Below, piece by piece: positions 29,638 to 59,912 of a stretch of DNA of 64,000 nt. The position numbers and the translations under genes are program-made. The stretch's first letter is position 1. Each line of letters starts with the position of its first letter. This DNA comes from Nakamurella aerolata (GTDB lineage Bacteria; Actinomycetota; Actinomycetes; Mycobacteriales; Nakamurellaceae). Location of the stretch: the NCBI RefSeq assembly GCF_013002705.1, contig NZ_JABEND010000013.1, positions 29,270 through 93,269 on the forward strand, read 5' to 3'. The notes under the pieces were generated by a model, which ran no database searches, was not told the DNA's origin, and was given only the letters and a program-made list of their open reading frames with translations.

Positions 29638-32600
29638 GTGGCTCAGCGCAGGCTCTTGTTCACTGTGCTGGGGCCATTGCGGGTTTTCGACGGCTCGACC
29701 GAACTGGCTCTGCACGGCCAGAAGGAGCAACGGGTGCTGGCCGCGCTGCTGGTGCAGGCCGGCCGATCGGTGCCGATGCATCGGCTGATCCGCTCGGTCT
29801 GGGACGAGGACCCACCCGTCACCGCCGATCATCAGGTTCGCAAGGCCATCGCGCAGCTGCGGCAGCAGTTGGCCGGCGACCCGGACGTTGCCATCCGCAC
29901 CGATTCCGCCGGTTATCGCCTCGAGTTGCCCGCCGAACGGTTGGACCTGCTGGTCTTCACCGCGGCGACGAAGGCCGCCCAGGATCCAGCGGATCCGGCC
30001 GGCGCCGCCGACCGGCTGCGGCAGGGTGTTGATCAGTGGCACGGGCCCGCGCTGGCCGGGCTGGCGTCGACGGAATTGCAAGCGGCAGCCCAACATCTCG
30101 AGGAGCTGAGGCTGGCCGCGGTCGAACAGCTCGCCGATCTCGAGGTGACCCTGCAGCGCCCGGCGGCGGCGGTGCAACTGCTGTCCGGCTTGGTGGCCGA
30201 GCACCGCACCAGGGAATCCTTGGTGGCCAGGCTGATGCTGGCGCTCGACCGGTCCGGGCGCCCCTCGGATGCGCTGCGGCTGTACGACGGGTGCCGCCGG
30301 CTGCTCGACGACGAACTCGGCGTGTCCCCCGGCGCCGAGCTGGCCGGGATGTACCAGCGCATCCTCACCGCGGATCCCGGCTCGCCGGCTGCCGCGGAGC
30401 GCGATGCCGCGCAGCCGGCGGCCACCGGCCCCGATCCCGCCCCGGCCGTCACCGATTCCCGTCAAGGCGGCGGCGACGCATCCGCCCGCCCCGCGGCAAC
30501 CGACAACCAGCAGGTAGTTGCCGGTCGGCGCCCCGACGAACGCCGCTCCCGGCTGGTGGTGCCGGTCGGTGGCGCGGTCGCCGCTACCCCGGGAGCCACC
30601 CCCATCCCGGCAGCGACACCGCCGGGCATGCCGCAGCCCGGCACGCCGCAGCCGCGGGCACTGCCACATCCCCGCGCCGGCGCGACACCCGACATCGCCA
30701 CGGCGGGTGCGCAAGCGCCAGGACGTCACCCTGCCGCCGGGACCGGACCGCAGATGCTGTCGACGCTGCCGTACGACCTTCCGGACTTCACCGGCCGGGC
30801 ACCGGAGCTGACCGCGCTGGAGATGCTGCTGCCGGAGCCCGACGTCCGGCGCACCACCATCGTGGTGTTGCAAGGCATGCCGGGCGTCGGCAAGACCGCC
30901 ATGGCGGTGCATGCGGCACATCGATGGCGCTCGCGCTACCCCGACTGCCAGTTCTTTCTCGACCTGCACGGCCTGACCGAGGGGCGGGATCGGCTGGAGC
31001 CGGAGGAGGCACTTGACCGGCTGCTGCGCTGGATCGGCGTGCCCGGCAACCAGATTCCCAACCATCCCGACGAGCGCGCCGCGCTGTGGCGAGACGGCAC
31101 GGCCGGCCTGAAGATGCTGCTGGTGCTCGACAATGCGGTGGATTCGTCGCAGGTGCGGGCGCTGATTCCCGGGTCGGACGACGCCCTGGTGATCGCTACC
31201 AGCCGGGCCGGGCTGCCCGGTCTGGACGGCTCGGTTCCGCTGCTGCTCACCCCGCCGTCCGCCGAGGACGGCCAGGCCTTCTTGGCGGCAACCCTCGGTC
31301 GGGAGCGCCTCGACGCCGAACCCGGCATGGCGGACCGACTGCTGGAATGCTGCGGTCGACTGCCGCTCGCGGTGCGGATGGCGTCGGCCCGACTGCAGGC
31401 CCGCCCGCACTGGCAGCTGGCCAAGTTGGTGGACCGGCTGCGATCCGCGGAACGGCCGCACAAAGAACTGACGGTGGAGGGCCGCGGCGTCGACGCGGCG
31501 ATCCGCTTGTCGTACAACGGGTTGAGCCCGCAGCAGCAGCGGTTCTTCCGCTTGCTGTGCCACGTCACCGACGAGACGTTCTCCCCCTACCTCGCCGCGG
31601 CCGCCGCCGGGCTGCCGACCGAGCAGGGTGAGGCGCTTCTGGAGCAACTGCTCGACGCCAGGATGATCGAGTCGCCGCGCCCGCAGCGCTACCAGTTGCA
31701 CGATCTGATGCGCAGCTTCGGCGCCGACCTGATCGACGCCGACGAGGCCGACACCGCCCAGCGGTGCTACCACGACGCGCTGCTCGCCGGCGTCCGCGCT
31801 GCCGCGGCCGCCCTGCAGCCGGATCGGGCGGCCATCGACCTTGACCTGAACGCGCCGGACGACGCGCCGACGTTCGACGGTGACGCCGCCGCCTACGCCT
31901 GGCTGGACGAGGAGTACCCGACCATCAGGGCGTCGGCGCTGCGCGCACCGGCGTTGGGTCTGCATCGCCACGCCATCGCCTATGCCAGGGAGTTGACCTA
32001 CTACCTGCAGGTTCGCGGCGCCACCTCGACCCAACTGGCGCTGCTGTCGGCGGCGGTGGCCTCGGCCCAAGCGCTCGGCGACCGCGACGAAGAGCTGCGC
32101 GGCCGGATCAACCTGTTCCCGCCGCTGTGGGGATCCGGCGACATTCAGACGGCCAGGCGGCATGCGGAGCAGGCGCTGCAACTGTCGCGGGAGCTCGGCT
32201 CCCGACGCTGGGAAGGTGTCTGCCTTGCCAATGTCGGGGTGGTGCTGCGCGGCGCCGGCCAGTTCCGCGACGCGATGCGCTACTTCCACCAGGCGCTGGC
32301 GATCCACCGAGAGGTGGGCAACAGCCGGCAGGAGAATTCGGTGCTGATCGCCATCAGCTTGGTCCTGACCGACCTTGGCGAGCACGCCCAGGCCCTGCGG
32401 ACCGCGGCCGAAGTCGAGCAGCGGGTGCGGAACCAGCCGAGCGTCAGCCGCCGGGTGATCCCGACCATCAACCTTGCGCAGTTGCAGGCGCGTCACGGTG
32501 ACGCCGAGATCGCGACCGAGTTGTACGCATCGGCGCGCCGCAGCGCAGAGTCGATCGGCATGCCGCTGGCCACTGCGCTGATCGACATCGGCATGGCTGA

Positions 32601-33066
32601 CCTGTTGGCCCGCAAGGGATTTGCCGACGAGCAGCACGCCGGCTGGCCCACCGCGGACGCCGGGCCGGTCGCTCCGGACGGATCGACAACCGATCTTGCC
32701 GCCGCCCTGCGGATGGCTCGGGCCGGTGCCCGATCGGCCGGGCAGCTGGGTGAACCGGGAGTAGAGGCGTCAGCGGCCAACACCCTCGGGCTGGTGCACT
32801 GGCGGCGCGGCGAATGGGAGCAGGCCGAGACGGCCTACCGCTTGGCCGCCGAACTGGCGCCCCGCGCTCACGAGGTCGCCGAGCACCTCACCGCGCTCGT
32901 CGGGTTGGCGTTGGTGGCGCAGGTCCAGGGCGCCGACAGCACGGATCGGTGGGCGCAGGCGACGGCGCTGGCCGGGTCGTTGGACGGCGCCTACGCCGCC
33001 AGGATCGGGCGCTGCCGGCGCGCAGCCACCGGGCGGGTGGGCACGGCGGCTGACGTCACCACCTGA
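29638..33066 (+). CDS. AfsR/SARP-family regulator with BTAD, NB-ARC and TPR domains
   Basis: 1142 residues. Residues about 5-95 are an OmpR-type winged helix (FTVLGPLRVFDG, KEQRVLAALLVQAGRSV, VRKAIAQLRQQL), about 100-245 a BTAD domain (RRLLDDELGVSPGAELAGMYQRIL), then a Pro/Ala-rich linker. An NB-ARC ATPase follows with P-loop GMPGVGKTAMA near residue 413 and LLVLDNAVDSSQV. From about 770 TPR-like repeats follow (GVVLRGAGQFRDAMRYFHQALAI). GTG start at 29638. SARP regulators activate antibiotic clusters; this is the probable pathway activator of the RiPP cluster, and tandem repeats in the precursor promoter are candidate sites. Confidence 0.9.
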   Translation: MAQRRLLFTVLGPLRVFDGSTELALHGQKEQRVLAALLVQAGRSVPMHRLIRSVWDEDPPVTADHQVRKAIAQLRQQLAGDPDVAIRTDSAGYRLELPAERLDLLVFTAATKAAQDPADPAGAADRLRQGVDQWHGPALAGLASTELQAAAQHLEELRLAAVEQLADLEVTLQRPAAAVQLLSGLVAEHRTRESLVARLMLALDRSGRPSDALRLYDGCRRLLDDELGVSPGAELAGMYQRILTADPGSPAAAERDAAQPAATGPDPAPAVTDSRQGGGDASARPAATDNQQVVAGRRPDERRSRLVVPVGGAVAATPGATPIPAATPPGMPQPGTPQPRALPHPRAGATPDIATAGAQAPGRHPAAGTGPQMLSTLPYDLPDFTGRAPELTALEMLLPEPDVRRTTIVVLQGMPGVGKTAMAVHAAHRWRSRYPDCQFFLDLHGLTEGRDRLEPEEALDRLLRWIGVPGNQIPNHPDERAALWRDGTAGLKMLLVLDNAVDSSQVRALIPGSDDALVIATSRAGLPGLDGSVPLLLTPPSAEDGQAFLAATLGRERLDAEPGMADRLLECCGRLPLAVRMASARLQARPHWQLAKLVDRLRSAERPHKELTVEGRGVDAAIRLSYNGLSPQQQRFFRLLCHVTDETFSPYLAAAAAGLPTEQGEALLEQLLDARMIESPRPQRYQLHDLMRSFGADLIDADEADTAQRCYHDALLAGVRAAAAALQPDRAAIDLDLNAPDDAPTFDGDAAAYAWLDEEYPTIRASALRAPALGLHRHAIAYARELTYYLQVRGATSTQLALLSAAVASAQALGDRDEELRGRINLFPPLWGSGDIQTARRHAEQALQLSRELGSRRWEGVCLANVGVVLRGAGQFRDAMRYFHQALAIHREVGNSRQENSVLIAISLVLTDLGEHAQALRTAAEVEQRVRNQPSVSRRVIPTINLAQLQARHGDAEIATELYASARRSAESIGMPLATALIDIGMADLLARKGFADEQHAGWPTADAGPVAPDGSTTDLAAALRMARAGARSAGQLGEPGVEASAANTLGLVHWRRGEWEQAETAYRLAAELAPRAHEVAEHLTALVGLALVAQVQGADSTDRWAQATALAGSLDGAYAARIGRCRRAATGRVGTAADVTT

Positions 33067-33070
33067 GCGG

Positions 33071-33295
33071 CTACTCCTCGACCGGGTCCAGGTGGCCGCC
33101 GCTGTCGGGTGTCGCAATGTGCGCCGCCGGGCCGCCGGACGCCACGCTGGTGACCACCGGTGCGGCCACGCCACCGCCGACCACCAGCGCCGCCACCGCG
33201 GCAACGACGGCTCGGCGGACGGTGCGCCGGGTTCGGCGCCCGCTCTGGATGGCGGGGGTTGCGGGTGCCGTGGCGACGGTGTCCTTCTCGTTCAT
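33071..33295 (-). CDS. small single-span membrane protein
   Basis: 74 residues from ATG 33295: a hydrophilic start, an arginine-rich stretch GRRTRRTVRR, one hydrophobic segment AVVAAVAALVVGGGVAAPVV and an acidic, His/Asp-rich outer tail ending in HLDPVEE. Positive-inside topology puts the tail outside. Convergent with the SARP regulator, only four bases between the stops. I recognise no family. It could be an immunity or anchor peptide of the cluster. Confidence 0.55.
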   Translation of the reverse strand: MNEKDTVATAPATPAIQSGRRTRRTVRRAVVAAVAALVVGGGVAAPVVTSVASGGPAAHIATPDSGGHLDPVEE

Positions 33296-33550
33296 GGTTG
33301 TTTCCGTCCCGTTGGAGTGACTGCGCAAGGAGCCGGCGGCGCGGCCCGAACAGCCGGCGCTGCTACCACCAGCGCCGAACCGCTCGTGGTGAACCGGACA
33401 GGTCGACCGGCCGCCGAAGACACCCACCATCCAGTCACGGCCGGATACCGGAACGTTCCCGCCGGCCCACCCGCGCCGGCCATGGATCGGTCGCCGGGAG
33501 CGGGATCGAACGGGGACCCAACCGGAACGACCCGTCGGCACCCTGCTGGC

Positions 33551-34555
33551 ATGGATTCTGCTGACCTGAATTCAGCGGGCCGGGCGGCCACCGCGACAGC
33601 GTCCCCGCACGGACCAGCCGGCCACCGGCCTGCCGTCACCCGGATCGCCGCGTCGCCCGCCAGTCACCAACGCCGCACGCTGGAGTTCTTCACCCACACC
33701 TTCACCGTGGTCGGCGACGAGCTGCCCGACCTCGGCTTCCACTTCGGCCCGCATCTGGCCCGCACCCGCAGGGCTGATTTCCAGGTCGAGATCACCGGAC
33801 CCGCCCTGCCCGGCCAGCGCGGCAGCTCCCGGGCACTGGAGCGGGAGGTCAGGGTGCGCCGGGCCGACGGCGTCAGCATGCTGCGCCGGCCGCTGGTCTC
33901 GTTACACCAGTTCCCGCCGGCGCTGCCGCCCTTTGCCGCGCTCGGCGACCGGTACGCGATCCGTCCGGCGACGGTGGTGCACCGCGGCCCGACGACGCTG
34001 GCCCTCACCGGCACCGACCCGTCCGAGTGTGCCGAGCTGGCGCTGGCGCTGTGCCGGCTGGGCTGGCGGCTGGTGTCCAGTCAACTGCTGGTGATCGACC
34101 GGCGGATCCGGCGGACGCTGGCGCTGCACACCCCGTTGCGGTTGCGCGGTGCCGCCGCTGCGGACATCGCCGCCAGCACGCCGGACGACGCCGTGCAGAC
34201 CTGCCAATCCGCGCTCACCGGGCCGACCCTGCTGGTTCGCCCTGAGGCGGTGGGCGCCATCGTCCCACTGCACGCCGAACTGCCGCTGCCGCTCGAGGTC
34301 AGGATCTGCCGCGGCCGAGCTGACCTTCCGCGGCTGCGCGGCCGCTGTGAACAACCGAGCGCGTTCTGGCCTCCGGAGGCCGCCGAGGTGGGCCGCGCGC
34401 TGAACCGGGTTTACCTGGAAATCCCCCGACCAGCGGCCGCCGACGAGGTGGCGCTCGAGATGCACCGGCAACTCAGCCGGCCGAACGCTGCGGAGCGGCT
34501 ATGCCACGACGAACGAGCTACCGTGCCGGCACCCCGTGCTGGATCGATTGCCTGA
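33551..34555 (+). CDS. HprK-like protein with degenerate P-loop (hypothetical)
   Basis: 334 residues from ATG 33551; ATG 33482 is an in-frame alternative and no ribosome-binding site decides. The middle reads ATVVHRGPTTLALTGTDPSECAELALALCRLGWRLVSSQLLVID. This has the layout of HPr-kinase-like proteins found in lasso-peptide and NHLM clusters: a strand, a P-loop, a helix, then 'G-[WF]-x-LLSDD'. Here the P-loop Gly-Lys-Ser/Thr is replaced by TGTDPSEC and the Asp pair by SSQ, so ATP chemistry is doubtful. Similarity is by pattern only. Its last 55 bases overlap the VOC gene start. Confidence 0.45.
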   Translation: MDSADLNSAGRAATATASPHGPAGHRPAVTRIAASPASHQRRTLEFFTHTFTVVGDELPDLGFHFGPHLARTRRADFQVEITGPALPGQRGSSRALEREVRVRRADGVSMLRRPLVSLHQFPPALPPFAALGDRYAIRPATVVHRGPTTLALTGTDPSECAELALALCRLGWRLVSSQLLVIDRRIRRTLALHTPLRLRGAAAADIAASTPDDAVQTCQSALTGPTLLVRPEAVGAIVPLHAELPLPLEVRICRGRADLPRLRGRCEQPSAFWPPEAAEVGRALNRVYLEIPRPAAADEVALEMHRQLSRPNAAERLCHDERATVPAPRAGSIA

Positions 34556-35256
34556 CAACGGATCCGACCGGCTTCGCCGGCTTCTTCGCGGAGCTGTTCG
34601 GCTGGACCCTTGAGGGTGAAGACGGCTACCGCTTGATCCAAGGCCGCTCCGGACTGATCGGTGGGTGCGGCCGGGCCCCGATGGGTAGCGGAGCGTCCGC
34701 CTGGACCGTCTACTACGCCAGCGCCCACCTGCCGGACGACCTGAAAACCCTGAGCGCACACGGCTTTCGGGTGGTGATGCCGGCCTGGCAGGCCGCCGCG
34801 GGGCAGCTGGCGCTGGTGGCCTGCACCGATACGGGGGTGGTGGCCGGACTGTTTCACGGCGCGCACGACGAGGGTGTAGTGGTGACCGCCGAACCCGGAA
34901 GCTGGTGCGGAACGGTGCTGTACGCCGCGCCGGAGCCGACCGCGGGTGTTACGCCCGAGCTGCTGTCGACCCTGTTGACCACCGAACCGGATGCAGCCAC
35001 CAACCCGGATGCCGGCGCCGAACCGGATGCTGCCACCGAACCGGAGGTGACTGCCGATCCGCTACTGCCGCAACGATTCTCCGGCAGCGGCCCGGCCGGC
35101 TGGGCGCCGGTGTTCGGCGTCAGCTCGCTGCCGCAGACACAGCGCCGGGCGGTCGCCGCCGGCGCCGAGGTGGTCGACGCCGATGCGGCCGGCCAGGCGC
35201 TGCTACGCGATCCCTGGGGCGCCCTCGTCGGGCTGCGAGAACTCGCACACGCTTAG
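34501..35256 (+). CDS. VOC (glyoxalase/bleomycin-resistance fold) family protein
   Basis: 251 residues, two VOC modules: residues 10-115 (TPCWIDCLTTDPTGFAGFFAELFGW, LPDDLKTLSAHGFRVVMPAW) and about 125-250 (GSWCGTVLYA, GWAPVFGVSSL, LRDPWGALVGLRE). They are joined by a repetitive linker of PDAA/TEP units. It resembles the tandem-VOC '27/30-kDa antigen' group. Bound substrate unknown; VOC proteins in antibiotic clusters often give self-protection. The ATG at 34501 lies inside the upstream gene, suggesting coupling. Confidence 0.75.
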   Translation: MPRRTSYRAGTPCWIDCLTTDPTGFAGFFAELFGWTLEGEDGYRLIQGRSGLIGGCGRAPMGSGASAWTVYYASAHLPDDLKTLSAHGFRVVMPAWQAAAGQLALVACTDTGVVAGLFHGAHDEGVVVTAEPGSWCGTVLYAAPEPTAGVTPELLSTLLTTEPDAATNPDAGAEPDAATEPEVTADPLLPQRFSGSGPAGWAPVFGVSSLPQTQRRAVAAGAEVVDADAAGQALLRDPWGALVGLRELAHA

Positions 35257-35277
35257 TGCGGCGGTCAACCGTCCCAG

Positions 35278-37998
35278 CTAACCCTTGCGGCCAAGGGCGG
35301 CGGCCAGCGCCGAGCGGCTGGTGATTTTCAGCTTGCGGTAGACGCGGTTCAGGTGGGTGTCGACGGTGCGGCGGGACAGGCACAGGGCGTCGGCCACTTC
35401 CTGATTGCTCATGCCCTTGATCACCAGGTCGGTCACCCTGGTCTCCGAGGCGGTCAGCTGCGCCGACCCAGCGGCTCGGCCCTGCTGGCCTGGTGCCGCG
35501 TCCGGCACCGATCCACCCGTCAGGACGGCGCCGAGCGCGGTGACGGCCTTGGCCTCGGCGACGTCGCCGTCGGCGGTCGCGGTGGCGGCAGCGGCGGCGA
35601 CCGCCGGGCGCAGATCCAGCCGCAACTCGGCCGCTGCCGCGGCGTCCGCAGCCCGCTGCAGCAGTTCGCTGCGGTTGCCGAGCCCGACCATGGCCGCCGC
35701 GGCCAGTGCGGGAGCCATGGCACCGGCCCCGCCCCAGCGCCGGGCCGCGGACATCGCGGCCTGCGCCGAGCGGGTGGCGCCGGCCCTGTCCTGGGCGGCG
35801 AGTTGCGCCGCCGCGGCCGCGCTCTGCCATGGCAGGCATGCCGGGTTGTGGATGCCGGCCGCGGACAGGGCGTGCCCGGCCTGCAGAAAGTACTGCGCCG
35901 CGCGCTGTGCCGCCCCCCGCCCGAGCGCTTCCTGGCCGGCGGCGAACCGCAGGTAGCCGGCGACCAGCGGATGCGGCCGGGCCAACGGGTCGACCCTGGC
36001 AAGTGCCTCCCTGGCCAGCGCCGCCTGTCCGGATTCCAGCAGCGCCAGCACGAGCACCGCGGTCGCACCCTGGGCGATGCCGCCGGCATGGGCGGCAACG
36101 GCCAGGTCCCGTGCCGCCTGCGCATCCGCGAGGCTGTCGGTGAGCTCGCCGCGGCGGCGCAGCAGCTCGGCGCGCACCAGCCGGGCGGTTGCTTCCTCGA
36201 CCGGGGCTCCCTGCGACTGTGCGGCCAGCACCACGGCATCGGCGCCGGTGAGCGCCCGCTGCGATTCGTCCGTCCAGAGCAGGGTGAGCAGGGCGGGCAG
36301 TTGATCGACGCCGGGCGGCAGTTCCCCCAGCGCCGCGGTGGCCAGCCGCTTGGCGGTGCGTCGGGCGGTGCCGGCACCGGCCAGCGCCGCCGACCACGCC
36401 GCCAGCACCGCGGCGGCCGCCGGGCCGGGGCCACCGTGGGCGGCGACCCGGCGCCACCGCGGTCCGGCGTCGGCCCCGGTCAGTACCGCGACCGCGCCGA
36501 AGCGGCACCACTGCTGCGGCAGCGCTGCGCCGGTACCGACCAGTTCGGCGGCCAGCGCGGTGAACGGCGCCGTCGCCGGGATCGAGTCGATCGCGAGCAC
36601 GGTGCTGACCAGCGGCAGCAGCGCGGTGGCCCGTTCGGCCGGGTCGGCGACCGCCTGCGCGATCCGCTCGGCATGCCGCATCGACGACGGCAGGTCGTGA
36701 TGCAACTCGACCGCGCCGATCTCCTCGGTCAACCGGCCGACCGGATCGGAGTCGGGGAGTTCGGCCGACTCGGCGATGGCCCGGCGCAGATAGCGGGAGG
36801 CGGCATCGTAATCGCCACCGCCGGCGGCGGTCCGCGCCGCCTGCTGCAGTGCGGTGACGGCCCAATCCAGTCCCGTCGGCTCGATCACCATCAGGTGCTC
36901 GGCCACGTCGGTGGCCGGGGCGCCGAATTTGGAGAGCAGTTCGGCCGCGGCCAGATGCAGCCGCTGCCGTTCCGCCAGTGGGATTCCGGCGAGCACAGCG
37001 CCGCGGAGCAGCTCGCTGCGAATGGCGACCGGCAGCCCGAGATCGACGAACCCGGCATCGGCCAGCTGCTGCCTGGCCTGCGCCGCCGCGAGCTCCCCTT
37101 GCCCAACCATCATCGAGGTGGTCACCGGGTCGGCCTGCGGGCCGAGCACCGCCATCGCCGACAGCAGCTCGGCCGCGGCCGGCCGGTCGCTGCGCAGCCA
37201 CGTCATCCTGGTGGATTCCAGGGTCTGGGCGGCGATCCGCCGCACCTCGTCGGCGCCAGGTGCGGCTCCGGACCCGGTCGTCAACCGGCGCAGAAAAGCG
37301 TTGGCCACCAACGGATTCCCGTCGCTCACCAGGTGGCACACCAGTGCCAGCTCCGGGTCGATCGGCGCCCCCAGCGCTGCCTCGGCCGCGGCGGTGGTGC
37401 AGCCAAGGCACAGCGGCTCGAGCTCGATCATGGTCGCCGGTGCCGAGTCGAGCAGCTCGGCAAGCCGGGCGCGCCCAGCGGCGTCCGACGTCGGGGCGGA
37501 GCGCACGGCGAGCACCAGCAGCAGCGGCAGATCGGTCAGCCGACGACGCAGCTGCGCCAGCACCGCAAGCGATTCCGCGTCCGCGCACTCGGCATCGTCC
37601 AGCACCATCGCGACCGGGCCCGCCCGCAGCACCTCGCGCAGCGCGCCGACGACGGACTCCCAGCACCGCCGCCTGCCCAGCGCGGACGCGCCGGCCGCCG
37701 ACAGCTGCTCCAGCGCCAGCAACGCGGGTTCCCACCGCGGGTCGTCCGACGGGATCAGCTGGGCCAGCACGGCGAGCGGCAACTCACGCTCGGCCTCCGC
37801 CGCGCGCGCCTGCAGCACCTGCCCCGGCTCACCGGCCAACGCCGCGCCGACCGCCGCCAGCAACGACGACCGGCCCATCCCGCGATCACCGGTCACCACG
37901 GCGGCCGCAGCCGCTCCGTGACGCCAGGCCTGGATGGCCTGCTCCGCGGCGTTGAGTGCCCGGCGCCGGTGCACCAGCACCTGCTCCGTCACCGGCAC
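35278..37998 (-). CDS. LAL-type LuxR-family regulator with AAA domain
   Basis: 906 residues. N-terminal ATPase-like domain with GDRGMGRSSLL at the P-loop, where Lys is replaced by Arg, and MVLDDAECAD as Walker B. A long alanine-rich helical-repeat middle follows. The C-terminal LuxR HTH (residues about 845-905) reads LTASETRVTDLVIKGMSNQEVADALCLSRRTVDTHLNRVYRKLKI. LAL regulators control secondary-metabolite clusters. Start ATG 37998, four bases after the stop of a small membrane protein gene on the same strand, so both form one operon, divergent from the cyclodehydratase gene. Confidence 0.9.
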   Translation of the reverse strand: MPVTEQVLVHRRRALNAAEQAIQAWRHGAAAAAVVTGDRGMGRSSLLAAVGAALAGEPGQVLQARAAEAERELPLAVLAQLIPSDDPRWEPALLALEQLSAAGASALGRRRCWESVVGALREVLRAGPVAMVLDDAECADAESLAVLAQLRRRLTDLPLLLVLAVRSAPTSDAAGRARLAELLDSAPATMIELEPLCLGCTTAAAEAALGAPIDPELALVCHLVSDGNPLVANAFLRRLTTGSGAAPGADEVRRIAAQTLESTRMTWLRSDRPAAAELLSAMAVLGPQADPVTTSMMVGQGELAAAQARQQLADAGFVDLGLPVAIRSELLRGAVLAGIPLAERQRLHLAAAELLSKFGAPATDVAEHLMVIEPTGLDWAVTALQQAARTAAGGGDYDAASRYLRRAIAESAELPDSDPVGRLTEEIGAVELHHDLPSSMRHAERIAQAVADPAERATALLPLVSTVLAIDSIPATAPFTALAAELVGTGAALPQQWCRFGAVAVLTGADAGPRWRRVAAHGGPGPAAAAVLAAWSAALAGAGTARRTAKRLATAALGELPPGVDQLPALLTLLWTDESQRALTGADAVVLAAQSQGAPVEEATARLVRAELLRRRGELTDSLADAQAARDLAVAAHAGGIAQGATAVLVLALLESGQAALAREALARVDPLARPHPLVAGYLRFAAGQEALGRGAAQRAAQYFLQAGHALSAAGIHNPACLPWQSAAAAAQLAAQDRAGATRSAQAAMSAARRWGGAGAMAPALAAAAMVGLGNRSELLQRAADAAAAAELRLDLRPAVAAAAATATADGDVAEAKAVTALGAVLTGGSVPDAAPGQQGRAAGSAQLTASETRVTDLVIKGMSNQEVADALCLSRRTVDTHLNRVYRKLKITSRSALAAALGRKG

Positions 37999-38002
37999 GA
38001 GT

Positions 38003-51744: not shown

Positions 51745-51808
51745 TCGAAAGCCCCATCACCACCTGGTTCACACCGGGTCTGCACCCTCGATCGCTAAGG
51801 AGATCGTC

Positions 51809-52351: not shown

Positions 52352-52759
52352 ATGACTACCTTGACCGCAGCCGAACGCGCCGCGTTCGCCACCGCCTACA
52401 CCAAGACCCTGATCAACGCCTGGTCCGACGAGGCCTTCGCCGACAGACTCCAGCAGCGACCCGCCGAGACCCTGACGGCCGCCGGGATCGCCGTGCCGGA
52501 CGGCACAACCGTTGCGCTGCAACGGGTAGCCGCCGCCGAGCCCGTCGACGGTGAACCCACCGGAGTCCAGGCCCAGCTGGCTGCCTACGAACGGAGCGCC
52601 GCGACCGGGCACTTTGTGTTCTATCTGCCCGATGCCCCGCAGATCGACAGGGCCGAACTCGCCGAGAGTGAGCTCTCGTCGGTGGCTGCCGGCGGCATCT
52701 GGGACCCGTACTGCTGCTCCTGCTGCCCGAGTTGCTGCAGCGCCAGCGGCAGCGGCTGA
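52352..52759 (+). CDS. NHLP-leader precursor peptide 2, Cys/Ser-rich core
   Basis: 135 residues. The leader (1-115) is clearly homologous to precursor 1 (ERAAFATAYTKTLINAWSDEAFADRL, ETLTAAGIAVPDGTTV, AELAESELSSVAAGG) and ends in a canonical AAGG. The core is IWDPYCCSCC followed by PSCCSASGSG: six Cys as CC-S-CC-PS-CC, then a Ser/Gly tail. ATG at 52352 with GAGGA nine bases upstream. It lies 171 bases after precursor 1 on the same strand. Two divergent cores on one leader type suggest two products or a two-component product. Confidence 0.93.
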   Translation: MTTLTAAERAAFATAYTKTLINAWSDEAFADRLQQRPAETLTAAGIAVPDGTTVALQRVAAAEPVDGEPTGVQAQLAAYERSAATGHFVFYLPDAPQIDRAELAESELSSVAAGGIWDPYCCSCCPSCCSASGSG

Positions 52760-52760
52760 T

Positions 52761-52820
52761 CCCATCCATTCGGGTCCCATGCATTCACGTCCCATGCATT
52801 CACGTCCCATGCGTTCAGGC
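52761..52820. repeat. 15-bp tandem repeat, four contiguous units
   Basis: Units CCCATCCATTCGGGT, CCCATGCATTCACGT (twice, identical) and CCCATGCGTTCAGGC from 52761, starting one base after the precursor 2 stop and ending just before the ribosome-binding site of the ABC gene. ATGCAT is palindromic. Confidence 0.93.
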
Positions 52821-52840
52821 ACGTCTCGGGAGGATCGCTC

Positions 52841-53845
52841 ATGCCAACACCCGCAACACCGATGAGCGCCGGTGCCGGCACCGGGCCGGACGGCGACGAC
52901 CCGGTGGTCGTCAGCGGCCTGCGCAAGTCCTACGGGCCCTTTCGCGCGGTGGATGACCTGGACCTACGGGTGCGGCGCGGCGAAGTACTGGCGTTGCTGG
53001 GCCCCAATGGTGCCGGGAAGACCACCACCGTCGAGATCCTGCAGGGCTTTCGCCGCCGCGACGGCGGGCGGGTGTCGGTGCTGGGCTGCGACCCGGCGCA
53101 CGACCGTCGGGGATGGCGGGCCCGCATCGGTGTGGTACCGCAAAGTACCGGCGGCTACGACGATCTGACGGTCAGCGACGTGTTGCGGCACTTCACCGCG
53201 CTGTACCCGCGCCCGCTGCCGGTCGGGCGACTGCTCGAGATGGTGGGACTCGCGGCCAAGGCCAATGTCAGGGCCTCGACGCTGTCCGGTGGTCAGCAGC
53301 GCCGCCTTGACGTTGCGGTCGGGGTGGCCGGTGACCCTGAGCTGATCTTTCTCGACGAACCGACCACCGGCCTTGACCCGGCGGCGCGCCGGGAGGCGTG
53401 GGAGCTGGTCCGGTTCTTCGCCGGTCGCGGCGCCACCACCCTGCTGACCACGCACTACCTCGACGAGGCGCAGGCGCTGGCCGATCGAGCGGCCGTCATC
53501 GTCGGCGGGCGGGTGGTGGAATGTGGCCCGGTCGACCGCCTCGGAGCGGCGCACCGATCCGGCGCCACCATCAGCTTCCGGCTCAGCCGCGGTCAGTCAG
53601 CGAGCTCGGTACGCGCGCTTTTCCCGCAGCTGGCCGTCGACGGTGCCGGCCAGGTCAGCTGGGAGAGCACCGCCCCCACCGGCGATCTCGGCCGGCTGCT
53701 GGCCTGGGCCGAGCAGCACCGGTTGGGTGAGATCACCGACCTGCAGTTGCGTCGCCCCAGTCTTGAGGACAACTACCTGAGGATCGTCGCCGAGCACACC
53801 GGCCAGCCCCCGGCAGCCGACCTGGCTGGGGTGAGGGCATCATGA
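52841..53845 (+). CDS. ABC exporter ATPase (DrrA type)
   Basis: 334 residues. Walker A LLGPNGAGKTTTVEIL, signature STLSGGQQRRLDVAVGV, Walker B LIFLDEPTTGLDP, then TTHYLDEAQALADR. The roughly 100-residue C-terminal extension is typical of DrrA-like drug exporters. ATG at 52841 with GGGAGG seven bases upstream. The partner permease gene overlaps its stop. Possible roles: export of the mature peptide or self-resistance, in addition to the NHLM exporter. Confidence 0.92.
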   Translation: MPTPATPMSAGAGTGPDGDDPVVVSGLRKSYGPFRAVDDLDLRVRRGEVLALLGPNGAGKTTTVEILQGFRRRDGGRVSVLGCDPAHDRRGWRARIGVVPQSTGGYDDLTVSDVLRHFTALYPRPLPVGRLLEMVGLAAKANVRASTLSGGQQRRLDVAVGVAGDPELIFLDEPTTGLDPAARREAWELVRFFAGRGATTLLTTHYLDEAQALADRAAVIVGGRVVECGPVDRLGAAHRSGATISFRLSRGQSASSVRALFPQLAVDGAGQVSWESTAPTGDLGRLLAWAEQHRLGEITDLQLRRPSLEDNYLRIVAEHTGQPPAADLAGVRAS

Positions 53846-54738
53846 CCAGCTCGACGCAGCCGCGGCTGCTCCCCGCCGACTTTTCGATGCGCGGGCGGAG
53901 TGCGGAGTCCGGCAGATCCGCTGCGACGCCGCCGGTTCGGCCACCGGGACTGCTGCGCACCACACTCGCGCGGTCGCGGGTCGAGCTGCTCGCCGTGTTC
54001 CGCAGCCGGCAGTCGCTGGTGTTCACCATGCTCTTCCCGGTGTTGATGCTGGTGATTCTCGGCTCCATCTTCAGCGGGACCGTGCAGGGCACGAACGTCG
54101 AGTTCCGGCAGGTGTTCATCGCCGGGGTGTTGGCCGCTGGGGTGATGAGCGTGGCGTTCTCCGGTCTGGCCATGAACATCGCCGTCGAACGCGACCGCGG
54201 CCTGATCCGCCGACTCGGTGTTTCACCGATGCCGCGAGCGGCCTATTTTCTCGGCAAACTGGTCAGGGTCGCCGTGACGACCTTGCTGGAAACCCTTGTG
54301 TTGCTTGCCATTGCCGTTCTCGCCTTCCACCTGCCGCTGCCGGCGGACGCCCAGCATTACCTCACCCTGGCGTGGGTCCTTCCGCTGGGAACGACGGCAT
54401 GTGCCCTGCTGGCGGTGGCCTACAGCTCGCTGATCCCGCACGCCGGCGCCGCCGCCGCGATCGTCACCCCACCCTTCATCGCGCTGCAGTTCATTTCCGG
54501 AGTGTTCTTCCCCTTCGGCCAGCTGCCGTCGTGGATGCAGACCGTTGCCGCGTTCTTCCCGCTCAAGTGGCTGGCTCAGGGCTTTCGCTACGTGTTCCTG
54601 CCGGTCGGCTTTCAGCGGGTGGAGCCGGCCGGCAACTGGGAACTGGGGCACATCGCGCTGGTTCTCGGGATCTGGGCGGTGGCGATGTTGGTGGTCAGCC
54701 TGCTGACGTTCCGGTGGAAGTCGACGCGTGTGCACTGA
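53842..54738 (+). CDS. ABC-2 type permease (DrrB type)
   Basis: 298 residues with six hydrophobic segments; RQSLVFTMLFPVLMLVILGSIFSG, VFIAGVLAAGVMSVAFSGLAMNIAVERDRGLIRRLGVSPMPRAAYFLGKL and VFFPFGQLPSWMQTVAAFFPLKWLAQGFRYVFLP are diagnostic of ABC2_membrane proteins. The ATG at 53842 overlaps the ATPase stop (ATGA). Forms the exporter with the preceding ATPase. Confidence 0.92.
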   Translation: MTSSTQPRLLPADFSMRGRSAESGRSAATPPVRPPGLLRTTLARSRVELLAVFRSRQSLVFTMLFPVLMLVILGSIFSGTVQGTNVEFRQVFIAGVLAAGVMSVAFSGLAMNIAVERDRGLIRRLGVSPMPRAAYFLGKLVRVAVTTLLETLVLLAIAVLAFHLPLPADAQHYLTLAWVLPLGTTACALLAVAYSSLIPHAGAAAAIVTPPFIALQFISGVFFPFGQLPSWMQTVAAFFPLKWLAQGFRYVFLPVGFQRVEPAGNWELGHIALVLGIWAVAMLVVSLLTFRWKSTRVH

Positions 54739-54798
54739 GCCGCCGCCGCGCCTGCGGCCATCCCGGCCACCAGTACCGATCAAGATAGGAAGACGTCG

Positions 54799-55764
54799 AT
54801 GATTACTCCGTACGGTTGGTTCCTGATCGGCTTTCTCGACGGGATTCCGCAGGGGGTGAGCCCGCTGCAGTTGGGCGGCCGGGCGCTGATCGCGGTTCGG
54901 GAGGCCGAACGGGTCAGGATCTTCGACGGGCGATGTCCGCACCGCGGGGCACATCTCGGCTACGGCGGGGTGCTCACCGACAACAACTGCGTGCTGTGTC
55001 CCTTTCACGGCAAGCACATTCAGCTCGGCGCACCGGACAAGCGACTCGGGATTGCCGAGCACCAGGTGGCGGTGGCCGGGGCCGCGGTGTTCGTCCGCAT
55101 CGGTGACGGAGCGAGCGCCGACCGCGGGTTCAGCACGGTGCTCACCGAACTCAGCAGCGCCGCCATGGTGGTGTCTGCGGTGGAGCTGGAGGTGCGGGTG
55201 CCGTCGGGTTATGTGGTGGAGAATGCCTTTGACATCGACCACTTCCGGGCCGTGCACAAGGTGCCGCAGATCCGCGGCATGAACTGTGTCGCCGGTCCCG
55301 ACGGCGAACTGACCATCCGCACCGAGTTCGTCACCGCCGATGCGCCGTGGCGAGCGGAGGCGGCTCGGCTGCAGGGCGCTGCCAGCCGAACGGCGGAGAT
55401 CAAACGCAGCAACAGTTTTCTGGCAAGGGCGTACAGCCCGCACCTGGTGCTGACCGAGTTCGACGACGGAAACTCCTCGAGCATCATCGTCACCGGCGGC
55501 GTGCCGCTCGCCGACGGCCGGACGTTGGCCCGGGTGGCAGTCGCGGTGCCGGACGGGGACATCACCGCTCTGGCCGGGCTGGTGGCGGGCGCCCGGAAGG
55601 CGCTCGGGGAGGATCTGGTGGTGTGGGAGCACCTGGACACCGATGGTCCGGAGCGGCTGGATTCAAGGGACAACGCCGTCCTCGCCTTCCGATCGTTCTG
55701 CGGTGAGTTCGAGCTTGCCGCCGCGGCTATGGCCGGTGCCCGGTGGACCGACGGTGTGGCGTGA
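54799..55764 (+). CDS. Rieske non-heme iron oxygenase
   Basis: 321 residues. Rieske cluster ligands CPHRGAH (Cys46, His48) and CPFHGKH (Cys67, His70). The mononuclear iron motif ENAFDIDHFRAVH (D-x2-H-x4-H pattern) follows near residue 145. Architecture is like KshA/single-component oxygenases; no reductase gene lies nearby, so electrons must come from elsewhere. ATG at 54799 behind AGGAAG. The stop overlaps the hydrolase start. Likely hydroxylates or desaturates the peptide product; target unknown. Rare in RiPP clusters. Confidence 0.9.
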   Translation: MITPYGWFLIGFLDGIPQGVSPLQLGGRALIAVREAERVRIFDGRCPHRGAHLGYGGVLTDNNCVLCPFHGKHIQLGAPDKRLGIAEHQVAVAGAAVFVRIGDGASADRGFSTVLTELSSAAMVVSAVELEVRVPSGYVVENAFDIDHFRAVHKVPQIRGMNCVAGPDGELTIRTEFVTADAPWRAEAARLQGAASRTAEIKRSNSFLARAYSPHLVLTEFDDGNSSSIIVTGGVPLADGRTLARVAVAVPDGDITALAGLVAGARKALGEDLVVWEHLDTDGPERLDSRDNAVLAFRSFCGEFELAAAAMAGARWTDGVA

Positions 55765-56600
55765 TGAGCAGCGCCCAGGACGTGGACGTCACGTCGGGGA
55801 GCGCACCGTTGGCGGTGCGGCACGGTGGTGACCGCAGCGGACCCGCCCTGCTGTGGCTGCACGGGTACACCATGGATTCCTCACTGTGGCAACAGATCTG
55901 GCAGCTGATGCCGCGGTGGCATCACGTTGCTGTTGACCTTCCAGGACATGGCGACTCGGCGCCCATCCCTCCCGGCCTCAGCCTCGACGCACTGGCCGAC
56001 ACCGTTGCCGGCGTGGCCGCCGACCATCAGGCGCGGCACTGCGTCGCACTGTGCTTCGGCTCCTGCGTTGCGCTGCAGTGGGCCATCCGGCACCCGGAAT
56101 CCGTCGACCAGTTGTCCATCGCCGCACCCACCCTCGGCGGGGTGTTGGCCGAGCCGGAGGCGGCGGCCAGGTACAAGCAACTGGCCATGTTGAAACGGTT
56201 CGCCGGCCCGGGTGAGCAGATGGCCGGGTTGTGGATGAGCAGTCCCCCCAACATCTTTCGCGGCGTCAGCCGCTATCCGGAGGCGGCCGAGCGAGTGCGG
56301 CAGGTACTGACCAGGCATCGCTGGGACGAGCTCGTCAGCGGCGCCATGGGGCGGCTCACCGGCAGTGTTCAGACACCGGAGATGCTGGGGGGCATCCGCA
56401 CCCCGCTGCAGGTGATTGTCGGAACCGAAGATCTTGATTCCATGCTGGTCAACGCTGCCACCCTGCAGGCGGCCGTGGGAACGGCAACGGTGCACCGGCT
56501 TGACGGTGTCGGACACCTCCCGCCGATCGAGGTACCGACAACGGTGGCACCGCTGCTCGGCGCATTCTTCGGCTTCCCCGGCGACGCTGCAGCCGAGTGA
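55764..56600 (+). CDS. alpha/beta-hydrolase with cysteine at the nucleophile position
   Basis: 278 residues. Oxyanion region LLWLHGYTMDSSLW, VAVDLPGHGDSAP, nucleophile elbow HCVALCFGSCVALQWAIRHP, acid region VIVGTEDLDSML and C-terminal GVGHLPP with the catalytic His. Aligned to the usual G-x-S-x-G elbow, the Ser is replaced by Cys97 (A-L-C-F-G), as in dienelactone hydrolase and some Cys-type thioesterases. The ATG at 55764 overlaps the Rieske stop. Possible peptide trimming, macrocyclisation or (thio)ester chemistry. Confidence 0.85.
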   Translation: MSSAQDVDVTSGSAPLAVRHGGDRSGPALLWLHGYTMDSSLWQQIWQLMPRWHHVAVDLPGHGDSAPIPPGLSLDALADTVAGVAADHQARHCVALCFGSCVALQWAIRHPESVDQLSIAAPTLGGVLAEPEAAARYKQLAMLKRFAGPGEQMAGLWMSSPPNIFRGVSRYPEAAERVRQVLTRHRWDELVSGAMGRLTGSVQTPEMLGGIRTPLQVIVGTEDLDSMLVNAATLQAAVGTATVHRLDGVGHLPPIEVPTTVAPLLGAFFGFPGDAAAE

Positions 56601-56675
56601 GCGCGGGTCGGCTGTGCACCGCCGAGTCAGGACAGCCGAGTGAGCGGAGCGCTAGTGAGCGCGGCCGGCTGACCG

Positions 56676-56699
56676 CAACCGGCAGGCCGCGGCCGGTTG
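56676..56699. terminator. hairpin between convergent genes
   Basis: Perfect 8-bp stem CAACCGGC / GCCGGTTG with an 8-base loop, located between the hydrolase stop (56600) and the radical SAM stop (56732). Suitable as a bidirectional terminator. Confidence 0.5.
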
Positions 56700-56731
56700 A
56701 GCCGAATGTCGCGCGAGGGCAAAAGATGCCG

Positions 56732-58789
56732 TCAGGCAACAGCTTCGGCCCGCCCGAAGATGATGCGGGTGTCGGCGTCGAAGTGCAGCCGGCGGGCGCC
56801 CCGCAGCAGCGACATCGCGTAGGCGGTGTTCCAGTACCCCACCCGGTCCGGTCGCGCGGTGGAACGCCCGGACACCACCGGTGCCGACGGGTCGTAGTCC
56901 CACTCGGGCAGCACGGCGAAGTCCCGCAGGATGTTCAGCGCCCTGCCGCTGACGGCGAACATGCCGGTGAGTGGCCGGGTGGAATTGCCTGCGCGCCACA
57001 TGGTTCCACCGACCACGTCGAGTGAATGCAGGCCGGGCAGATCACCGATGCCGTCCGTCCCGGCGAGGTCGAAGGTGTCGACCAACAGCTGGGTCGCCTC
57101 CTTCAGAATCGCCCGGTGCCGCTCCGCGTCGTCCATCACCAGGTACATCTCTGCCTGGTAGTGGAGCTCTTCCAGCACGCTCTTGCGATCGCCGAGAATC
57201 GCGTCGATCGGCTGGTAGTCGATGGAGAACGGGTGCCGCAACGACTGTTCGTGATGGCGCTGCACGGCCGACAGTTCCGGACAGGAAGCCAGACCGACCT
57301 GATCGGTGTGATCCATCAGGGTGCTCACCATGTCGACGATCCGCACCCCGCTGATCGCCGAGAGGTACAGCAGGGTGCAGCGCATCGCCGCCTTGACCCA
57401 CAGCGACGTCGCGGCGAACATTCGCATTCCGCGCACCCAGCCGTCGAAGCTCATCTGCGGGTGTCCGACCACCACGTCGGCGACCAGCGACGGGTCGGAG
57501 ATGTCGCACGGCATGTGCCGCGCGGTCAGCGGGTGCAGTTTGCCGAAGGTGTCCGAGGCGTACTCGGTGTTGTTCAACAGCACCAGCGGATACACCACCG
57601 GGCAGCCGCCGGCCTGCAGCACCTCCTCGACCCCGTCGAGATGCACCGGCAGCGGTTCCCCCGGCAGACCCCAGATCAGATCCGTGTAGGTCGGGATTCC
57701 GCGCTCTCTGAACTCGACCTGAAGCTTTCGATACCGATCCAGTTTGATGTTCGAGCGGTGCGCGATGTCCAGGGTCTGCTGGTCGAACGACTGCGCCGAC
57801 AAGGTGATCGCACCGGCCATCCGATGCCGGTGCAGCACGGTGGCGATCTCGACCACCTTGGAACTCGAGTTCTTCGCCCAGTTGGTCATGAACGTCAGTT
57901 GTTTGCCGTACTTCTGACACAGCCGGACGAACATCTCGGCGATCTGCAGGTCGCGGCCCAGGATGCCGAAGTTCGCGTCCGCCACGAACAGGCTGGTGCC
58001 GGGCCGGGCCAGCCGGACGATCCGGTCCAGCTCCGCCTCGATGCGCTCCAGCGAGAACTGCCTGACCTTGGACTTGGTGGCCCCACCCCAGAAGCAGAAG
58101 GCACAGGAATAGGGACATCCACGGTTGGTCTCGTAGATGATCAACCGGGTGTGCGCCAACGCCTCGTCCGAATACACGTCGGTGAGGATCGGCGAGGGCA
58201 CGTCGTCCAGGTCGACGATGCGGCCGCCGTCCGGGGTGGTGGCCACCTGGCCGTCGACGTCCCGGTAGCTGATGCCGCCGATGTCGGCCAGCTCACCGTT
58301 GTCGAGCAGAGCGGCGTGCAGCACCTCGCGGAACCGCAGCTCGCCCTCGCCGTGCACCAACACATCCGTCCACGGTGCCTGTTCGAACAAGGCTTGCTGC
58401 TGATTGGTGACGTCGTTCCCGCCAAAGACGATGAGGCACCGGGGGAATCGCTCTTTCACCCTGCGGGCCAGCTCCACCGCCTGCGGCCGGTTCCAGAAGT
58501 ACACGGTGAAGGCGACGACCGACGGATCGCGCATGCTCTGCAGGACCCGGCGGTAGCCGTCCTCCACCAGGGTGTCGGCGGTCGGTTCGATGTGCTTGTG
58601 CACGTCCAGCGCGGCATCGAGCGCCGGGTCGGTGCGGATCACCGCGTGCAGGTAGCCGAGGATGGCCGAGTAGTTGTGCTCTTCCAGCATGGTCATCTCG
58701 ACCAGATGCACCTCGTGCCTGGTCCGCTCCGGCAGCGTGACGGCGGCCGTCCGCCTGGTCCAGGGTTGTCCCAGCTGCACTGCTGCCAC
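56732..58789 (-). CDS. B12-binding-domain radical SAM enzyme
   Basis: 685 residues from GTG 58789 (GAGG seven bases upstream). Residues about 25-170 are a cobalamin-binding-like Rossmann domain (HLVEMTMLEEHNYSAILGYL, VVAFTVYFWNRPQAVELA, IVFGGNDVT, VHGEGE); a DxHxxG motif is not seen, as in many class B enzymes. Radical SAM cluster RGCPYSCAFCFWGG (C-x3-C-x2-C) near 226, then an elongated C-terminal part. Class B relatives methylate unactivated carbons. It is convergent with the Rieske-hydrolase operon and likely C-methylates the peptide core or leader-attached residues. Confidence 0.9.
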   Translation of the reverse strand: MAAVQLGQPWTRRTAAVTLPERTRHEVHLVEMTMLEEHNYSAILGYLHAVIRTDPALDAALDVHKHIEPTADTLVEDGYRRVLQSMRDPSVVAFTVYFWNRPQAVELARRVKERFPRCLIVFGGNDVTNQQQALFEQAPWTDVLVHGEGELRFREVLHAALLDNGELADIGGISYRDVDGQVATTPDGGRIVDLDDVPSPILTDVYSDEALAHTRLIIYETNRGCPYSCAFCFWGGATKSKVRQFSLERIEAELDRIVRLARPGTSLFVADANFGILGRDLQIAEMFVRLCQKYGKQLTFMTNWAKNSSSKVVEIATVLHRHRMAGAITLSAQSFDQQTLDIAHRSNIKLDRYRKLQVEFRERGIPTYTDLIWGLPGEPLPVHLDGVEEVLQAGGCPVVYPLVLLNNTEYASDTFGKLHPLTARHMPCDISDPSLVADVVVGHPQMSFDGWVRGMRMFAATSLWVKAAMRCTLLYLSAISGVRIVDMVSTLMDHTDQVGLASCPELSAVQRHHEQSLRHPFSIDYQPIDAILGDRKSVLEELHYQAEMYLVMDDAERHRAILKEATQLLVDTFDLAGTDGIGDLPGLHSLDVVGGTMWRAGNSTRPLTGMFAVSGRALNILRDFAVLPEWDYDPSAPVVSGRSTARPDRVGYWNTAYAMSLLRGARRLHFDADTRIIFGRAEAVA

Positions 58790-59114
58790 CGCGGCGCCTC
58801 CTCGACTCGATACCTGCCCCGATTCAGCCAGCAGCGAGCCATCGCGCGGAAGTAGTCTCACCTCGGTTACGCAGTTGCCGGGCCGGGCGGTACGCAAGGT
58901 GACGTACCGCCGGTCGGTAGCCAGGCAGCCGTGCCGCCGCCGACCGACCCGAAAGCGCCGACGCCCGCCACCGTTCGGCTGTTCGCACCCTCCGGTTATC
59001 CACCGGCCGGGCCGCAGCCAGGCGCGGGGGTGGCTCGGGGTGGCGCGGCTGCGGGCCGCCGAGGTGAACGCACTGGCCACCATGGACGCGCTGCCGGACT
59101 GAGTCAGTTTTCCC

Positions 59115-59161
59115 GGCTCAGATGTTGCCGGCTCAGCTGCTCCTGGCTCAGATGTTGCCGG
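59115..59161. repeat. 17-bp direct repeat, period 30, duplicating a gene end
   Basis: GGCTCAGATGTTGCCGG occurs at 59115-59131 and 59145-59161. The second copy contains the last codons and stop of the VOC gene; the first is its duplicate in the downstream flank. Confidence 0.85.
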
Positions 59162-59912
59162 CCAGTTCTTCCTTGGGCGGGAAGACGCAGAACTCGTTGC
59201 CCTGGGGGTCGGCCATCACGGTCCAGTTGGCAGCCTCGTTCGGCCCGCGGAGCACCGTCGCGCCGCGCGACTGCAGCTCGTCCACCGCATTGTTGTTCAG
59301 CGCCAACACATCCCAGTGCCAGCGGTTCTTGACTTGCTTGGGGTCGGCGACCGGGACGAACTTGAACACCAGCTGATCCATGCCGGCCGCCCCCCGCAGA
59401 TGACGCGGGCGACCGTCGTCCGCGTCGGTGAGCTCGCCGCCGATGACGCCCTGCCACCATGACGCCAGCTGCTCCGGCTCGGCGCTGTCCACCAGCAGCG
59501 CGAACACCTCGGCCGGCGCACCGCCGGTGCCCGTGCCGGCGCCAGCGCCGGCACTCGACGGGGGGAAGACGCAGAACTCGTTGCCGCCCGGATCGGCCAT
59601 CACGGTGAACGATGCGTTCTTGTCCGGTTGATCGGCGACCACGGTGGCGCCCCGTTGCTGCAGCGCTGCGGTGTCGCCGTAAACGTCGACGTGCACCCGA
59701 TTCTTGCCGGTTTTCGCCTCGAGGACCGGATTCACCCACCACTTGCGCAGCGGCACACCGTCCACCGCGAGGATCCCGTACGGGTTCTTGTCGTCGTAGC
59801 GGCCGCCGAGCGCCGAGGCCCAGAAGTGCGCGGTGGCAGGCGGATCCATCGCATCGATCACCAGATCTTTGATGGTCGTCAGGGAGGTTCCGGTCTGGTC
59901 CGGACTGGTCAC
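59148..59912 (-). CDS. tandem VOC (glyoxalase-fold) protein
   Basis: 254 residues, two similar VOC modules: residues 10-115 (LVIDAMDPPATAHFWASALGG, NRVHVDVYGD, SFTVMADPGGNEFCVFP) and about 130-250 (VFALLVDSAEPEQLASWWQGVIGG, KNRWHWDVLA, NWTVMADPQGNEFCVFP). GTG at 59912 with AGGAG six bases upstream. It resembles standalone tandem glyoxalase-like proteins; its substrate is unknown. It marks the right edge of the inserted island next to gnd and could be a second resistance-type VOC protein. Confidence 0.82.
   Translation of the reverse strand: MTSPDQTGTSLTTIKDLVIDAMDPPATAHFWASALGGRYDDKNPYGILAVDGVPLRKWWVNPVLEAKTGKNRVHVDVYGDTAALQQRGATVVADQPDKNASFTVMADPGGNEFCVFPPSSAGAGAGTGTGGAPAEVFALLVDSAEPEQLASWWQGVIGGELTDADDGRPRHLRGAAGMDQLVFKFVPVADPKQVKNRWHWDVLALNNNAVDELQSRGATVLRGPNEAANWTVMADPQGNEFCVFPPKEELAGNI

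Follow-up and report, generated by a model that had tools for sequence, protein, structure and literature searches.

A candidate polythiazole peptide gene cluster with a mixed set of tailoring genes separates recF and gnd in Nakamurella aerolata

We have found a gene cluster in Nakamurella aerolata that encodes two Cys-rich peptide precursors with nitrile hydratase-like leader peptides (NHLPs), a maturation and export set, and a Rieske oxygenase, a hydrolase and a B12-radical S-adenosylmethionine (SAM) enzyme that occur together here, unlike in any of 29 relative clusters. It lies in a window of 64,000 nucleotides (C5:29270-93269 of the host genome, contig NZ_JABEND010000013.1), where it forms an island of 30,869 bases (30.9 kb; 29382-60250) separating recF and gnd. 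The block is probably a horizontally acquired cluster, in which a YcaO cyclodehydratase and a SagB oxidase would turn the Cys runs of both precursors into consecutive thiazoles. The cluster itself is real and not a chance arrangement, since relatives from 29 genomes show this gene set again and the block fills a gap absent in 13/13 congeners. A sequence-only reading of the window had described a complete and apparently undescribed NHLP-led azole cluster at 29638-59912. Every gene it listed is present there by gene calls, Pfam and NCBIfam, and the natural limits of the island lie somewhat further out.

Results

The island between recF and gnd

Seventeen genomes of the genus were searched for gnd, and its surroundings were fetched from 13 of the 16 others, namely those with a gnd ortholog at least 71% identical; G001, G005 and G007, which have a distant gnd only, were left out. 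In all 13, recF follows gnd with a gap between the matches of at most ~250 bases. The N. aerolata genome (4.35 Mb, 95% complete) holds a single YcaO gene, and the YcaO fusion has no match above 40% identity in the 16 congeners (best in G004, 40%). Coding-potential gene calls gave a continuous gene run from 29638 to 59912. Insertion is the simplest reading of the gnd-recF gap, and horizontal acquisition is likely on this comparison. Plasmids searched for YcaO relatives gave only matches below 60% identity, and no Rfam family was found within 29300-60400. Two congeners, G013 (C11:290769-294369) and G009 (C16:250453-251752), carry arrays of several other NHLP-like open reading frames (ORFs) with weak matches, apparently a different cluster.

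Maturation and export genes

Pfam and NCBIfam scans covered 19 island proteins; the small proteins at 33071-33295, 38003-38188 and 48648-48905 were left out. Five of the core matches lie above their family cut-offs: the YcaO/SagD part (TIGR03604, 245.5 bits against 219.25), the leader-binding/ThiF part (TIGR03882, 111.4 against 36.9), SagB (TIGR03605, 147.6 against 78.4), the NHLM ATP-binding cassette (ABC) protein ABC1 with its C39 peptidase (TIGR03796, 985.3 against 853.3) and ABC2 (TIGR03797, 790.3 against 709.4). These matches bear out the complete maturation and export set that the sequence-only reading had proposed. Inactive YcaO or SagB genes would have spoken against that reading, and both genes look intact: the YcaO fusion, whose ORF most likely starts at 38472, aligns over its full length with LynD, TruD and MusD, and SagB matches CyaGox.

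The motifs of SagB, C39 peptidases, radical SAM enzymes, cytochromes P450 and Rieske oxygenases have established functional roles. Here they are kept throughout: the Lys-Tyr of SagB in 25/25 sequences, the C39 Cys, His and Asp of ABC1 in 27/27, the radical SAM CxxxCxxC in 6/6, the P450 heme Cys in 26/26, and the Rieske ligands in 22/22, as are the two iron-site His. No frameshifts were met in the gene calls. The YcaO protein ends in NPYSVFF, and an NxxxVFF-like tail is found in 120/120 homologues listed of the 297 found.

Precursor peptides

Precursor A ends in CCCCPCCCCT, which holds eight Cys in ten residues. The pattern CCPC(C/S)(C/S/T)(C/S) is kept in 61/62 listed homologues (itself included), the exact CCCCPCCCC in 32/62 and the C-terminal Thr in 49/62. 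In homologues, some of the Cys positions are filled by Ser or Thr, consistent with azole formation. Cores of ribosomally synthesized and post-translationally modified peptides (RiPPs) usually change faster than their leaders. In 28 rows of precursor A picked for diversity, the ten-residue core has a mean identity of 87.6% and the leader 54.6% (378 pairs), while the stretch between them falls to 23.4% (363 pairs); collecting the rows by their similarity to A raises all absolute values, and the contrast of core and leader was measured inside the same rows. Four homologues of precursor B were found, with 84.8% identity in the core against 46.4% in the leader (10 pairs). GGIWDPYCCSCCPSCCSA is identical in 4/5 precursor B sequences, the fifth having GGEWGSYCCSCCPSCCSA, and all five contain W-x-x-Y. 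The Cys spacing of B, CCSCCPSCC, differs from that of A.

A profile built from 29 precursor sequences hits an NHLP leader of solved structure, 8tb1 (E 1.1e-6), as well as alpha chains of nitrile hydratases. L(X)4L stands before the cleavage site in 27 of the 28 A rows, with M(X)4L in the remaining one, and as LAESEL in B, which also has an AAG site and a leader of A's family. The earlier claim of two NHLP-leader precursors is upheld by these features. A and B presumably travel together, because contig sizes coincide: the B homologue P0186 and the closest YcaO relative, P0001, both lie on 217,897-bp contigs, and the B homologue P0185 and the A homologue P0124 on 7,617-bp contigs. Some A homologues are tagged with PF27793, one of the newer Pfam entries; the precursor family as such has thus already been noticed by Pfam.

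Intergenic tandem repeats occur at 51351-51429 (4.6 copies of 17 bp), at 51702-51744 directly upstream of precursor A (2.9 copies of 15 bp) and at 52760-52817 downstream of precursor B (3.9 copies of 15 bp). They are possible regulator sites. A promoter scan around both precursors found none, and the one terminator-like site there is of a kind expected at chance frequency.

Distribution and relative clusters

At E below 1e-25, the precursor profile strongly matches 3/396 genomes of the phylum and 8/394 of the class (own included in both), as well as 19/394 genomes of one family and 14/297 of another; a second precursor profile has strong matches in 12/397 genomes of the order (own included). 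Protein searches returned homologues in Streptomyces, Kitasatospora, Nonomuraea, Microbispora, Sphaerisporangium and Yinghuangia, those of precursor A being in records named Streptomyces, Kitasatospora, Nonomuraea and Microbispora. The precursor and cluster family is widespread but sparse in actinobacteria and spans several families.

Besides its own, 36 genomes matched strongly, and the regions of 29 were fetched; of the seven others, one lies on a 6-kb contig and six belong to an already represented genus. The Rieske oxygenase, the hydrolase, a second P450 and a flavin adenine dinucleotide (FAD) amine-oxidase-like protein co-occur in 21/29 clusters, always all four. Five others carry a B12-radical SAM enzyme 44-48% identical to that of the island, without those four at comparable score. 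Among the remaining relatives, G932 has a weaker B12-radical SAM match (203 bits) and G030 a faint one (54 bits), and G245, on a 16-kb contig, has neither the Rieske-type genes nor the B12-radical SAM gene. Rieske and B12-radical SAM genes stand together in 0/29.

In the YcaO tree a supported clade unites the island with 16 of the 17 Rieske-type rows, and there it stands beside P0001-P0003 (97/92); it is joined to P0001 and P0002 alone only at 93/60. All five B12-radical SAM rows make up a clade of their own. Given its gene set and this placement, the island looks like a Rieske-type cluster whose tailoring set has been partly swapped. The mix of tailoring enzymes in the sequence-only reading (P450, methyltransferase, Rieske, B12-radical SAM) is all present, to which we add that the nearest cluster type has two further enzymes, the second P450 and the FAD oxidase, that the window lacks.

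Two precursors occur in 8/29 relative clusters, as in the island. In G030 (L168, 19227-19607, minus strand), a second NHLP precursor has a Cys-free, hydrophobic core (VSSEVDVNIVVIAIVI) and is paired with a poly-Cys precursor ending in CACCCPCCCT. Ten more genomes of the same genus have a strong precursor match and a second match each.

Gene content

The features of the island are collected in Table 1. The protein at 33551-34555 has no Pfam or PDB match, and its single-sequence structure model (mean predicted local distance difference test, pLDDT, 35.7) was too poor to use.

Table 1. Features of the N. aerolata island, in window coordinates (VOC, vicinal oxygen chelate; SARP, Streptomyces antibiotic regulatory protein; RRE, RiPP recognition element)
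Feature	Position	Strand	Evidence
Whole block, recF to gnd	29382..60250	.	gnd-recF neighbours in 13/13 fetched congeners
SARP/AfsR-type regulator (BTAD, NB-ARC, TPR)	29638..33066	+	Pfam, NCBIfam
Unknown-function protein	33551..34555	+	tblastn, alignment; kept in 6/29 relative clusters
VOC/glyoxalase-like protein (KbpA-like)	34501..35256	+	Pfam PF18029; NCBIfam KbpA below cut-off; 10/29 relative clusters
LuxR-type large ATPase regulator	35278..37998	-	Pfam AAA_16 and GerE; >100 bits in 20/29 relatives
RRE-ThiF-YcaO fused cyclodehydratase	38472..40805	+	TIGR03604, TIGR03882; full-length LynD/TruD/MusD match
SagB azoline oxidase	40895..42460	+	TIGR03605; CyaGox match; Lys-Tyr
NHLM HlyD-type adaptor	42457..43269	+	TIGR03794 slightly under cut-off
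NHLM ABC1 exporter with C39 peptidase	43318..45573	+	TIGR03796 above cut-off; C39 triad
NHLM ABC2 exporter	45592..48513	+	TIGR03797 above cut-off
Small membrane protein	48648..48905	-	Search of relative clusters; 19/29
SAM-dependent methyltransferase	48956..49783	-	Pfam; search of relative clusters
Cytochrome P450, uncertain start (up to 51291)	49828..51117	-	Pfam; heme Cys
Precursor A, core DINCCCCPCCCCT	51809..52180	+	Gene call, NHLP leader profile, homologues
Precursor B, core GIWDPYCCSCCPSCCSASGSG	52352..52759	+	Gene call, NHLP leader profile, homologues
DrrA-like ABC ATPase	52862..53845	+	Pfam, NCBIfam, relatives
DrrB-like ABC-2 permease	53842..54738	+	Pfam, NCBIfam, relatives
Rieske oxygenase	54799..55764	+	Pfam; Rieske ligands and two iron-site His
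Alpha/beta hydrolase with Cys nucleophile	55764..56600	+	Pfam; Ser in relatives
B12-binding radical SAM enzyme (KedN5-like)	56732..58789	-	Pfam, NCBIfam; CxxxCxxC; 5/29 relatives
Second VOC protein, in block	59148..59912	-	Pfam; 0/29 relative clusters

Discussion

Proposed pathway

The chemistry, cleavage sites and order of steps that we infer would run as follows. The RRE domain would bind the leader, which is ~110 residues long, nitrile-hydratase-like and has L(X)4L beside the cleavage site. Thiazolines would be formed from Cys by YcaO and oxidised to thiazoles by SagB. Up to eight rings could arise in precursor A, which would become a rod of the form (thiazole)4-Pro-(thiazole)4-Thr, and up to six in precursor B. 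Oxidation or methylation by the P450, the Rieske oxygenase, the B12-radical SAM enzyme and the methyltransferase would follow. Export would use ABC1, ABC2 and the adaptor, with the C39 domain of ABC1 cleaving behind AAG in the process. DrrAB would protect the producer, perhaps together with a VOC protein, for which the one at 34501-35256 is a possible candidate. The residues of A between AAG and the first Cys are variable and may therefore be trimmed off; GIWDPY of B is conserved, for which reason it probably stays in the product.

A bolder extension, which we regard as possible but unlikely, is a two-peptide polythiazole system in which A, a stiff rod in which proline links two thiazole tetrads, and B, its WDPY-headed partner, would act together. 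The rod would be among the most conserved actinobacterial azole-peptide cores, and the VOC proteins would trap thiazoles, as bleomycin-binding proteins trap bleomycin, and so shield the producer.

Points against and alternative readings

A number of results weigh against an acquired thiazole cluster. As to the insertion, no direct or inverted 12-mer or longer is common to 29201-29700 and 59851-60400, no tRNA gene was found in the window, and the block has a GC content of 70.1% against 69.9% in the left and 68.6% in the right flank. As to the protein families, the adaptor scores 139.3 bits, under the TIGR03794 cut-off of 156.2; the precursors score 42.3 and 36.4 bits with the NHLP leader family TIGR03793 (cut-off 50.9); and DrrA (214.1 bits against 312.45) and DrrB (53.6 against 223) also stay below theirs. 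All of these proteins are nonetheless related to the families named. The B12-radical SAM enzyme has NF033712, the KedN5 type, as its best match with 324.3 bits against a cut-off of 700 and, judged by that score, is a relative and not a member of this subfamily of C-methyltransferases. A Foldseek search with a model of precursor A was topped by nitrile hydratases and 8tb1, but its best E was 0.048 and no hit reached 0.001, which is too weak to build on. A C-terminal PxPxP tail is typical of other azoline-forming YcaO enzymes, and it occurs in 0/120 YcaO homologues listed of the 297 found. The second P450 and the FAD oxidase, both present in 21/21 Rieske-type relatives, are not in the window, and elsewhere in the genome they have weak partial matches only. 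The nucleophile elbow of the hydrolase has Cys here only, with Ser in 21/21 relatives; the "Cys-type hydrolase" of the sequence-only reading is an alpha/beta hydrolase with a changed nucleophile.

The absence of the second P450 and the FAD oxidase and the Ser-to-Cys change peculiar to the Nakamurella island would also suit a decaying cluster, once a complete Rieske-type system and now without a product or with a simpler one. We think this improbable, because no frameshift was met, all other checked motifs are intact, the core of precursor B is kept in four further sequences and the island has a B12-radical SAM enzyme like those of the other cluster type. Another doubt concerns how far the thiazole chemistry reaches. 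W-x-x-Y in every B sequence and the distinct Cys spacing of B could mean that YcaO modifies A only, while the P450 or the B12-radical SAM enzyme acts on the Trp or Tyr of B, whose thiols or disulfides would be kept; yet B shares the leader family, L(X)4L and AAG site of A, and the genome holds one YcaO. We consider this reading improbable as well. With eight Cys in ten residues, the Cys runs might instead stay free thiols, in whole or in part, and bind copper, zinc or another metal, which is plausible as far as metal binding goes. It is, however, very unlikely next to an intact YcaO and SagB that adjoin the precursors, and with Ser or Thr at some Cys positions in homologues. Conversion of the Cys runs of both precursors into thiazoles remains the likely reading.

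Relation to known systems

Among the families matched by the 19 scanned proteins there is no Lan-type dehydratase or [4+2] cyclase of a thiopeptide, no lanthipeptide synthetase or dehydratase, and no LanMbC dehydratase or other Lan-type family of a dehydrazole; these three classes are rejected for that reason, and the exclusion of lanthipeptides and thiopeptides in the sequence-only reading stands. Classical proteusins of the polytheonamide kind are marked by a PoyD-like radical SAM epimerase. The sole radical SAM enzyme among the scanned proteins is KedN5-like with a B12 domain, not such an epimerase, and this class was rejected as well.

The cluster is best filed as a widespread variant of the azole-containing NHLP peptides, NHLP-thiazole/oxazole-modified microcins (NHLP-TOMM), with azoles predicted; nostatin A, the Mpr peptides and carnazolamide are known azole peptides derived from NHLP precursors. 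It has an NHLP leader by the match to 8tb1 and nitrile hydratases, though below the TIGR03793 cut-off, the C/D cyclodehydratase and a SagB dehydrogenase, the NHLM export trio with its adaptor at 139 against 156 bits, and L(X)4L before the cleavage site in A and B. The comparisons that follow hold for the accessible portions of the papers cited. NHLP-TOMM clusters have been described as a kind by Haft 2010 (PMC2887384) and Cox 2015 (PMC4603692). As in the island, they comprise an NHLP leader, a cyclodehydratase fusion, a dehydrogenase of the SagB type and the NHLM adaptor with its two ABC proteins, and NHLP-Burk precursors, too, can occur in tandem pairs. Unlike these, the island has the CCCCPCCCCT core and Rieske, P450 and B12-radical SAM tailoring, and no product of this sort is described there. 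The nostatin A cluster (PMC11583998) shares the NHLP precursor, the YcaO route to azoles and a C-methyltransferase of the B12-radical SAM kind, but has the core AASCQTTASSACTTPSCLSSASTASSNSCS as well as Lan dehydratases and a PoyD-like epimerase, neither of which was found in the island. In the MprC/MprD/MprE system (PMC12455567), which likewise combines an NHLP leader carrying L(X)4L, a YcaO RRE and a flavin oxidase, L(X)4L matters for docking on the YcaO enzyme and thiazole formation amounts to 20 Da per Cys; it has ten precursors (MprE1-10) with other cores, and the tailoring set of the island is not among its described features. Dehydrazoles and carnazolamide (PMC10676384) resemble the island in NHLP leader, Cys-rich C-terminus, YcaO, dehydrogenase and methyltransferase, but are defined by a LanMbC dehydratase and have a radical SAM epimerase and an S8 peptidase, none of which was found in the island.

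In the open literature searched, no paper prints CCCPCCCC, CCCCPCCC or CCCCPCCCC, none has "Rieske" and "YcaO" together, and by titles and abstracts no such cluster appears among the matches listed for polythiazoles and tetrathiazoles. The product is provisionally undescribed as far as this literature shows, MIBiG and most subscription journals lying outside the search. The "apparently undescribed" of the sequence-only reading survives in that sense, for a branch of an actinobacterial family and not for a singleton. New here are the conserved poly-Cys core pair and the hybrid tailoring set; the NHLP-TOMM kind is already known.

Conclusions

If all eight Cys in the ten core residues of precursor A were cyclised, the resulting thiazole run would be denser than in any ribosomal product known to us. 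Because the core is better kept than the leader in both A and B, a reversal of the usual pattern, the conservation indicates that the products are fixed and strongly selected. The homologues of precursor A in Streptomyces, Kitasatospora, Nonomuraea and Microbispora mean that the product may be within the reach of culture. The two tailoring sets of the family, one with the second P450, the FAD oxidase and the Rieske oxygenase and the other with the B12-radical SAM enzyme, are combined in part in N. aerolata, which makes this island a natural experiment on tailoring.

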